Assembly: GCA_025359945.1 (NCBI GenBank)
Contig: JANYDD010000015.1
Span: 1-33,339, forward strand
Source of the DNA: Bdellovibrio sp.
Lineage (GTDB): Bacteria > Bdellovibrionota > Bdellovibrionia > Bdellovibrionales > Bdellovibrionaceae
Reading direction: 5' to 3'
Length of the DNA: 33,339 bases
Below, piece by piece: positions 15,708 to 28,318 of the stretch. Below the pieces are notes generated by a model. It searched no databases and was not told where the DNA came from. It saw only the letters and a program-made list of their open reading frames with translations. Position 1 is the first letter of the stretch. Each line of letters begins with the position of its first letter. The position numbers and the translations under genes are program-made.

Positions 15708-16406
15708 CTATCTTGCAGTACCTTGGTCCAGGCTTACTCTTCGGTCATCTGAAAGACTATTTTTTTTCTTCGAAAATAAGTCAAACACTTCCAGTTTGGG
15801 CAAAAGGCGGCCGGTCTCTTGTGCATATTTCTCGAACTCGGGGAAAGTTTTACTCAAGGCTCTTTCTTCTAAGTTCATCGACTTGTGATAAACAACAGCC
15901 ATCAACAGTAAACAGAGGCCCACCAAAGCTGAACCCGATCCTAAAAAAAATCCGAAATAAATTAACAAGTTTCCTAAATAGATAGGGTGACGGATATAAC
16001 GATACAAACTTTTCTGAACTAAACTTTTCTGAACTAAACTTTTCGGAATATAGGAATTGAAAAGCGGTGTGTATGAGCTTCCTAATTCAAGCTTAGCGAA
16101 AGAAAAAATGCTAATTCCCATTGTCCCGAACACCATTCCTGCAAATCGCGCCAGGGAAGATGTCCAAAGCAAAAACGAGCCTTGAAACGGATAAAAGTAT
16201 TCCAAATTAGACGCAAGAAGAGTTATCAGCAATGAACCTTTGATCATCCAAGCGCTGCCTGGGACATGATCAATTTTTTCAACTTTTCCCGAATAGTATT
16301 TTTTGGCTCGATCTGTGCTGTAGAACGCAACCGATGTCAGCGCTATCACGTTGAAAAGGGAAATAAAAAACATATCCAAAACTGGGCTAATTTGTGATGG
16401 GATCAT
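15708..16406 (-). CDS. Isoprenylcysteine carboxyl methyltransferase-family membrane protein
   Basis: A 232-residue membrane protein with about five hydrophobic segments. The C-terminal half has the ICMT/PEMT hallmark: YRYIRHPIYLGNLLIYFGFFLG followed later by EERALSKTFPEFEKYAQETGRLLP (written here in parts; Arg-His-Pro-x-Tyr and the Glu-Glu pair bind S-adenosylmethionine and substrate). Bacterial members methylate diverse or unknown substrates. Just before the core motif the protein contains a repeated KSLVQ segment encoded by a 15-bp tandem repeat. The start overlaps the preceding gene by 4 bp (ATGA). It takes the place where pilG would be expected next to pilH, but no relation to PilG is visible. 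Confidence 0.75.
   Translation of the reverse strand: MIPSQISPVLDMFFISLFNVIALTSVAFYSTDRAKKYYSGKVEKIDHVPGSAWMIKGSLLITLLASNLEYFYPFQGSFLLWTSSLARFAGMVFGTMGISIFSFAKLELGSSYTPLFNSYIPKSLVQKSLVQKSLYRYIRHPIYLGNLLIYFGFFLGSGSALVGLCLLLMAVVYHKSMNLEERALSKTFPEFEKYAQETGRLLPKLEVFDLFSKKKNSLSDDRRVSLDQGTAR
16006..16046. repeat. 15-bp tandem repeat in the methyltransferase-like gene
   Basis: Two exact copies of AAACTTTTCTGAACT (16006-16020, 16021-16035) are followed by a third, partial copy to about 16046. On the coding strand they encode repeats of SLVQK directly before the conserved core, so copy-number change keeps the frame. Confidence 0.9.
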
Positions 16407-26651: not shown

Positions 26652-27389
26652 TTAAATTTGGTCGGTGAGTATTTTGAACAAACGTGGCCATCGGATACTT
26701 TGAGGGGCGCAGATAAATGGCGATGAAGGCAAAGTGTCTGTGCACGAGAGCCATATAAATAATGGCCTTCCTATTAAATTTTGTTCGGGAACAAATCCCC
26801 AGTAACGCGAGTCTGACGATTGGTTTCTGTTATCACCCATCATAAAGTATTGGCCGTCAGGAACTTTTACGGGATCAAAGTTGGTTTGCTTTAGATCCAA
26901 ATATCTAACCCAGTGTCGATTTTCTAAAAAGTATTGAAATTCAAACCGATCTTCTTGAAGACTTGGATCCACGGGGAATTGACTTTTAAATTCTGTCTTC
27001 AAGCGTTGCTCAGAGAAAAACTCAAGAGGGAATTTTTCTCCGTTGACCCTGACTTCGCCCTCTTGAACTTCGATGATGTCGCCCGGAAGTCCTAGAATCC
27101 GTTTGATGTAAAAAACGTCGGGTTCTTTGGGATATCTGAAAACTACGATTTCAAAACGTTGAGGTTTTTTCCAGATCGTCAGAAAGGGATCTAGCCCTGG
27201 AATTTTTAAACCGTAGGAAAGTTTGCTGACCAAAATATGATCATGCACCAAAAGCGTGGGAATCATACTTCCCGAAGGAATTACAAAAGGTTCAGCCAAA
27301 AAAAATCGCACCACTAAAATCGCCAGCAAAGGCGAGAAGAACGTCACCAGCGCCTGGGGCCAAGTTCCTTTTTTACTTTTCGATGCCAT
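26652..27389 (-). CDS. lepB: Signal peptidase I
   Basis: A 245-residue signal peptidase I, which removes signal peptides from exported proteins on the outer face of the inner membrane. One N-terminal membrane segment (13-34) is followed by PSGSMIPT with nucleophile Ser41, the Lys base Lys96 in FYIKRILGLPGD, and the late box MGDNRNQSSDSRYWG. All catalytic elements are present. The ATG has GGAG 9 bases upstream. It lies in the middle of three lepB genes, and the 159-bp inverted-repeat element separates it from the one upstream. Confidence 0.96.
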   Translation of the reverse strand: MASKSKKGTWPQALVTFFSPLLAILVVRFFLAEPFVIPSGSMIPTLLVHDHILVSKLSYGLKIPGLDPFLTIWKKPQRFEIVVFRYPKEPDVFYIKRILGLPGDIIEVQEGEVRVNGEKFPLEFFSEQRLKTEFKSQFPVDPSLQEDRFEFQYFLENRHWVRYLDLKQTNFDPVKVPDGQYFMMGDNRNQSSDSRYWGFVPEQNLIGRPLFIWLSCTDTLPSSPFICAPQSIRWPRLFKILTDQI

Positions 27390-27411
27390 TTATTTTTGCT
27401 CCGGACCTTAA

Positions 27412-27570
27412 AGGGTGTTTGAAAAGTATCTGTCGGAGCGAAACTTTGTGAGAAAGTTCTGGCCGAGGCGGAGGGAGAAGCCGTAGGTAGCAGCTACGGC
27501 GCCGACTGACAACGAAGATCCAGGAGTTTCTCACAAAGTTTTTAGCCCCCAGATACTTTTCAAACACCCT
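27412..27570. repeat. 159-bp nested inverted-repeat element
   Basis: The ends are a perfect 21-bp inverted repeat (27412-27432, beginning AGGGTGTTTGAAAAG, and 27550-27570). A second pair of 22-bp arms with three mismatches lies inside (27441-27462 and 27520-27541, including a perfect 15-bp part), and a third pair, GCCGTAG (27480-27486) and CTACGGC (27494-27500), forms a central hairpin with a 7-base loop. The element starts 1 bp behind the stop codon of the upstream lepB and would fold as one long hairpin in the transcript. It resembles a miniature inverted-repeat element or REP-like repeat. No target-site duplication was evident. Confidence 0.9.
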
Positions 27571-27571
27571 C

Positions 27572-28318
27572 TTAGTTAACCGGATGAAAAAATCGAGCCC
27601 AACGAATCGTCAGTGGGTTGCATATAAAGCTGACCACCGGCAAAGTCTCTTCGCACGAAAGCCAAACTAAACTGGCCCGCCCTAAAATATTTTTGTGCGG
27701 TAAAAATCCCCAATATCTTGAATCCTTCGAATTATTGCGATTATCACCCATTACAAAAAGACTCTCGGGCGGCACCGTGACTGGTCCAAACGTGTCAGCA
27801 AATTCGCCCTTTCGGAGTAAAATGCTGTGATTTTTTTGATCTAGTTTTTCGATAAAGTGAACGTAGTTATCTTTGCTGTCGAAAAGATCATTGGGTCCTT
27901 GGAAGGCCTCGTCGCGCAACCAATCGGCTTCGGAGGGTCCTTCGGGGACTTGCTTCTCCATGGGCTTGTCGTTGATGTACAGAGTGCCGTTTTCGTAGAA
28001 AATTTTGTCACCGGGTACTCCAACGATTCTTTTAATAAAGAAAGTTGTCATATCTTGCGGGAATTTAAACACAATCACTTCGCCTTTTTGAGGCTCAGAG
28101 AATTTAACTAGAAAGTTCTCGCTGAACGGGATACGAAGGCCGTACACAAACTTGTTCACAAAAATATGGTCGTGAATCAATAAGCTTGGAAGCATGCTGC
28201 CCGACGGAATCACGTAAGCTTCAAAAAAAGCCCAGCGAATAAATAAAGCCACAAAAATAGCGACTCCAAAAGAACCAATCCCGTCGGTCCAAAATTTTTT
28301 CGATTTCCAGTCAAACAT
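27572..28318 (-). CDS. lepB: Signal peptidase I
   Basis: A 248-residue signal peptidase I with membrane anchor at about 14-34, PSGSMLPS with Ser41, Lys96 in FFIKRIVGVPGD, and the late box MGDNRNNSKDSRYWG, so it should be active. It is clearly the closest relative of the second copy (same spacing of boxes, 245 versus 248 residues), pointing to tandem duplication. It is the first of the three copies after lepA, with 165 bp between them and no strong ribosome binding site visible. Confidence 0.96.
   Translation of the reverse strand: MFDWKSKKFWTDGIGSFGVAIFVALFIRWAFFEAYVIPSGSMLPSLLIHDHIFVNKFVYGLRIPFSENFLVKFSEPQKGEVIVFKFPQDMTTFFIKRIVGVPGDKIFYENGTLYINDKPMEKQVPEGPSEADWLRDEAFQGPNDLFDSKDNYVHFIEKLDQKNHSILLRKGEFADTFGPVTVPPESLFVMGDNRNNSKDSRYWGFLPHKNILGRASLVWLSCEETLPVVSFICNPLTIRWARFFHPVN

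Follow-up and report, generated by a model that had tools for sequence, protein, structure and literature searches.

Integron attC sites lie behind stop codons and are characterized by a folded bottom strand and variable arms. The 23S rRNA IVS elements carry long hairpin arms. REP/BIME elements are extragenic palindromes that often lie behind genes and occur in tens of copies. REPs are described as palindromic, extragenic and multicopy with a strand-specific fold (PMC2817692). MITEs of the IS1031 subgroup (IS5 family) are short, multicopy elements with terminal inverted repeats and a 3-bp TNA target repeat. The IS1031 subgroup generates only 3-bp TNA repeats (PMC12016507). The hairpin analyzed in this study has features in common with each of these systems. 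By the features tested, it fits none of REP, attC, Rfam RNA, 23S rRNA IVS and the terminator with a U tract. It resembles the IS1031-subgroup MITEs in its short length, terminal inverted repeats, TNA target repeat and multiple copies, and differs from them in that its core is common to elements with unrelated ends and in that its terminal repeats are continuous with a hairpin spanning the full element. Overall, our analysis suggests, with a probability of roughly 0.7, that the element represents a new family of hairpin mobile elements and is carried in this genome as a MITE.

The window, i.e. the whole stretch of DNA analyzed, comprises 33,339 nt of a Bdellovibrio sp. contig (JANYDD010000015.1). 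The longest inverted-repeat pair in the window is a palindrome adjoining lepB. The whole element has exact limits at 27411-27571 (161 bp) and is read on the plus strand, which is the strand of the conserved core and antisense to both lepB genes. A TTA is present on either side of the element: the left copy (27408-27410) is identical to the right copy (27572-27574), and the latter, read on the minus strand, is the TAA at which the upstream lepB terminates. The left terminal repeat, AAGGGTGTTTGAAAAGTATCTG (27411-27432, plus strand), resembles and may be an IS5/IS1031-type end, and its inverted counterpart occupies 27550-27571 (minus strand). The inverted-repeat arms (27407-27462 and 27520-27575) are 56 nt long and 82% complementary. 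Pairing is perfect in the 21-bp outer stem (27412-27432 with 27550-27570), which is followed inward by an imperfect stem of about 22 bp; the imperfect inner arms lie at 27433-27464 on the left and 27517-27549 on the right (both plus strand), and the apex is a 7-bp stem, GCCGTAG/CTACGGC. The central 52 nt or so are not a plain stem and constitute the conserved core, GAGGCGGAGGGAGAA-GCCGTAG-loop-CTACGGC-GCCGACTGACAACGAAG (27465-27517, plus strand). Folding of 199 nt gave energies of -95.1 kcal/mol on the plus strand (z = -9.6, a value equalled by none of 200 shuffles) and -91.6 kcal/mol on the minus strand (z = -9.1). Arm pairing and folding in both orientations thus confirmed the original prediction of a palindrome at 27412-27570 built from a 21-bp stem, an imperfect stem of about 22 bp and a 7-bp stem.

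Its placement between two signal peptidase genes was also borne out, as both neighbouring genes match the Peptidase_S26 profile (1.7e-49 and 1.1e-49). The directly upstream lepB (signal peptidase I; 27572-28318, minus strand) ends at the element, and the second lepB (26652-27389, minus strand) starts 21 nt past the left end of the element. The tail of the first gene and the leader of the second, which form the flanks outside the element, have a weak inverted similarity (p = 0.03) that is partly conserved coding sequence, and an inverted copy in these outer flanks is not claimed. Elsewhere in the window, a perfect 24-bp inverted repeat with a 17-nt loop, GTACCGCATCCCTTTTTACGTAAC, was found at 854-918 and a short 15-bp tandem repeat with the unit CTAAACTTTTCTGAA at 16001-16048.

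A search of the window's own genome (G000; a draft that is 96% complete) revealed at least four copies, namely the window element, two further full copies and one decayed copy. The full copies are located at C104:12255-12422 (86% identity to the window element) and C103:37152-37330 (78% identity); the core of the fourth copy, in C18, has decayed. The own-genome matches in C65, C104 and C103 had E values of 9e-88 to 4e-35, and the other copies are 162, 175 and 162 bp in length. All copies in this genome have in common the terminal repeat GGGTGTTTGAAAAGTATCTG (with changes) and 54-bp arms. The C104 copy also adjoins a stop codon; the C103 copy sits between divergent genes, and the stop-codon rule is therefore not universal. 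Two further loci, L028 and L029 (G000:C39:139097 and C69:55985), each retain a single remnant of the terminal repeat found in the window element.

Two of the three MITE features tested were found in the element: terminal inverted repeats, which are perfect over 21 bp and common to four copies, and a 3-bp TNA target duplication, which is TTA/TTA in the window. Exact target repeats (TAA/TAA, TTA/TTA, TAA/TAA and TAA/TAA) also flank four elements with other ends in a related genome, G042 (assembly PSRN01, 'Bdellovibrio sp. isolate Amazon FNV 2010 18 1'); roughly half of the copies in MITE form have imperfect target repeats. Since TAA fits TNA, a stop codon hit by insertion is restored. An autonomous IS1031-type partner, in the form of a transposase gene bounded by the window element's ends, was not found in G000, where matches to these ends comprised only element ends and single remnants and where a PF13340 fragment at C96 had no such end; as this genome is a 96% complete draft, a partner IS could have been missed. 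The element differs from the IS1031-subgroup MITEs in this respect, and because no partner with shared ends was found, only MITE-like behaviour is claimed here and not membership of the IS1031 MITE family. The further copies in G000 and the 3-bp TNA repeats in both genomes support the earlier suggestion of a miniature mobile element, and it is quite probable that the window hairpin is a mobile, MITE-like element.

Elements in the related genome G042 have the same core of about 52 nt enclosed by three arm types. Two of these arm types have an end in common and different inner arms, and one arm type cannot be aligned to the other two (left-left scores no better than for shuffles). Element length is constant across the arm types at 159-162 bp, the G042 elements being counted minus their first and last base. 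The core consensus was found to be Y-GAGGCGGAGGGAGAA-GCYGTAG-loop-CTACRGC-GCCGACYGACAACRAA-R; on the plus strand G-C pairs are possible in the core, separated by G.A/G.A modules. The exact core pattern was also matched by two elements of another genus.

Of the 359 Bdellovibrionota genomes analyzed with a first covariance model (R1, the core plus 12-bp arms), 24 contained matches, and these represent 15 genera. A second model (R2), built from 35 matches, yielded 20, 20, 18, 10 and 4 matches in five genomes, and two genomes of one genus contain about 20 copies apiece. A 400-kb sample of G015, one of these five genomes, contained one strong and one marginal match, which indicates that false matches are rare. 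In some family members the apex is extended by a long segment that contains a second variable stem. No gathering match to Rfam was found in the window and nothing relevant at E<1 in eight loci; blastn against plasmids, phages and E. coli gave no convincing match, viral contigs contained none of the core patterns, and a search of assembled contigs with a loose core pattern gave matches only in the G042 assembly. A description of the hairpin family was not found in the papers searched, which is weak evidence of absence, and a sequence search of papers returned unrelated primers only. The core belongs to a broader family of small hairpins, dispersed through Bdellovibrionota, that has apparently not been described before.

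Position and orientation of the elements are fixed in the genus studied (g4, the genus of G003-G026). Of the 52 cleanly placed family members, oriented with the core on the plus strand, 41 have an antisense gene on their right. In g4 the stop codon of this gene lies 10-17 nt from the modelled arm end in 28 of 39 cases, from which it follows that the extended arm begins at the stop codon. The genes preceding the g4 elements are unrelated to one another; two of them presumably are polA and phosphoglycerate kinase, as judged from the C-terminal sequences of the upstream genes. The g4 copies differ in their outer arms and are gained and lost between species. At the 3' end of polA the element is present in five of 24 species, where G005, G008 and G012 have one insertion in common and the arms in G023 and G015 differ. 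No gene end was found to be occupied in both the G010 and the G015 copy sets. Presence and absence between related species lends the proposal of a miniature mobile element further support at the level of the wider family.

Comparison of empty and filled sites revealed how the outer arms of one copy relate to host DNA. The gene preceding the element in G009 (filled) is 98% identical to that in G003 and G006 (empty). The far arm in G009 is the original host sequence, including the start of the next gene, and the stop-side arm repeats that host sequence in inverted orientation (stop-side arm against the reverse-complemented empty site, p = 0.0004 for G003 and 0.019 for G006). This close empty/filled pair is the one clear case of an inverted target copy, and the other cases are weaker. 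Comparison of G018 with G016 and G023 agrees with an inverted copy, but the target there is itself a palindromic terminator, so that inverted and direct copies are indistinguishable; the inverted-copy test at polA in G023 and G016 gave a weak signal (p = 0.04). In G003, 54 bp next to the element are missing at the L155 locus and the stop-side arm is unlike those of G006 and G010, and a formal test of re-copying at this locus was negative (p = 0.46). The arms of the G006/G010 pair have changed in a coupled manner at L155, for which re-copying or selection could each be sufficient.

Compensatory changes among copies were sought and between-copy covariation proved to be very strong: pairing across 93 aligned members was 90% compared with 58% in shuffles, and the covariation score was 0.64 compared with 0.15 in shuffles and at most 0.14 in slid controls. 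Covariation was initially viewed as proof of a selected RNA structure, a view that was dropped after the comparison of empty and filled sites. Because an insertion duplicates neighbouring DNA in inverted orientation, the between-copy covariation of the outer arms can be mostly a by-product of insertion, and constraint is apparent only in the core and inner arms. The original prediction that pairing is kept by selection is thus retained for the core and inner arms, which look constrained, but not for the outer arms, which are explicable by inverted copying.

Arm columns read on the core strand contain 98 G.T against 18 A.C (16 columns against 3), although these counts are not independent since the copies are related. 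In g4 the ratio of G.T to A.C was 52:10 in the inner arms and 35:14 in the outer arms, and outside g4 it was 22:13 and 38:32, respectively; in G042 alone the wobble bias is absent (23 against 20). The tolerance of G-T over A-C on one strand of the inner arms points to a folded single strand. The wobble-tolerant core strand is antisense to the upstream mRNA, and the excess of G.T on it favours a folded core strand and argues against selection on an mRNA hairpin. The 98:18 bias hence bears directly on the alternative that the elements are 3' untranslated RNA structures of the upstream genes (terminators, mRNA stabilisers or RNase III sites) selected for RNA pairing. Such structures would account for the strong pairing of every copy and for the fixed orientation directly after stop codons, and a weak enrichment of T past the far arm, in mRNA sense, is in line with them (g4, 3.9 of 10 after the element compared with 2.9 before it). 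This enrichment is not the U tract right after the stem that marks an intrinsic terminator; most copies have no U tract and none follows the stem at the window element. The same gene end is empty in most species and sometimes has an ordinary terminator there, and in the cleanest case the outer arms follow local DNA. An RNA structure of this kind is therefore considered unlikely. The original suggestion that the element could process or stabilise the lepB transcript faces the same point, as wobble pairs are tolerated on the strand opposite to the mRNA.

A REP-type element mobilised by a RAYT (Y1 transposase) would also be a palindromic, extragenic and multicopy element with a strand-specific fold. 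The hairpins of this family are longer than REPs, are conserved at the apex, have unique arms and keep a fixed orientation at the stop codon, and their foot sequences vary from copy to copy with neither GTAG nor CGTC at the base, which makes a REP-type origin quite improbable. An attC-like recombination site, with the bottom strand folded directly behind a stop codon, would be consistent with where and in which direction the elements lie, with their folded antisense strand and with their variable arms, a comparison that concerns only how the elements may work. Whereas attC is conserved at its base (R boxes RYYYAAC and GTTRRRY), the base is unique in each g4 copy and conservation is at the apex; moreover, the elements are dispersed behind unrelated genes and form no cassette arrays, and this reading is very improbable. 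An accidental palindrome, which the original prediction would have accepted for a single copy with none in relatives and no covariation, is virtually impossible in view of the multiple copies, the conserved core and the shuffles.

Under the preferred reading of a mobile hairpin family that occurs in this genome as a MITE, the TAA that terminates the upstream lepB would be the insertion site of a MITE-like element, and the 3-bp target duplication would have restored this stop codon. The IS5/IS1031-type ends of the element make mobilisation in trans by a transposase of that type probable. Its cargo would be the conserved hairpin core of the wider Bdellovibrionota family, and the core strand would act as a folded single strand whose fold is stabilised by G-C and wobble pairs together with G.A modules. 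For the core family, for which no enzyme was found, a self-primed snap-back copying mechanism is put forward tentatively as the simplest scheme to link these observations. The hairpin, as a single-stranded DNA intermediate, would be joined to a free end behind the stop codon and then snap back; the snapped-back hairpin would prime synthesis, by which the adjoining host DNA would be copied in inverted form. Outer arms that are unique to each insertion yet match each other would be the result. Insertion beside an IS end would yield two inverted IS ends, i.e. an instant MITE, which could then be mobilised by an IS1031-type transposase; this would account for the copies in G000 and G042. In its broadest form the proposal is an undescribed kind of bacterial mobile element, a single-stranded hairpin of about 75-105 nt that inserts behind stop codons, builds palindromic arms by inverted target copying and turns neighbouring IS ends into MITEs, and in this form it is rather doubtful.

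Inverted target copying, if confirmed, would be unusual as the insertion signature of a bacterial element and would constitute a route from a single IS end to ready-made MITEs. It would also call for caution, as the insertion process, rather than selection on RNA, may underlie hairpin covariation between copies. The family, with about 20 copies per genome, high turnover and complete genomes available, represents a ready test system.

Similar to the 23S rRNA IVS elements, the window element has long hairpin arms; unlike them, it is located outside rRNA, between lepB genes, and contains no protein or IVP gene. PF05635 was not found in G000, and the IVP loci tested did not match the core model. 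A G042 element with a 23S_rRNA_IVP gene has the terminal repeat of some core elements. In the same genome a 691-bp element (L074:1500-2191; G042:C264) with the terminal repeat GAGCGCATCTAAGAAG, inverted arms of about 115 bp and a TAA/TAA target repeat contains an IVP gene only and is inserted in the stop codon of a rodA/ftsW-like gene. One end of the kind that the snap-back scheme calls for, GAGCGCATCTAAGAAG, occurs at L061-L090 of G042 in about 20 solo copies; they are partnerless, and some of them form a 30-nt mini-palindrome. A 1.4-kb IS5-family element (L134:803-2219; G042:C225) has PF13340 and PF01609 in two frames together with a 23S_rRNA_IVP four-helix-bundle gene, and its ends are 70-bp perfect inverted arms. 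Orphan 23S_rRNA_IVP genes outside rRNA were observed at five further loci (L097, L099, L104, L109 and L119), each with long inverted arms that are specific to the element.
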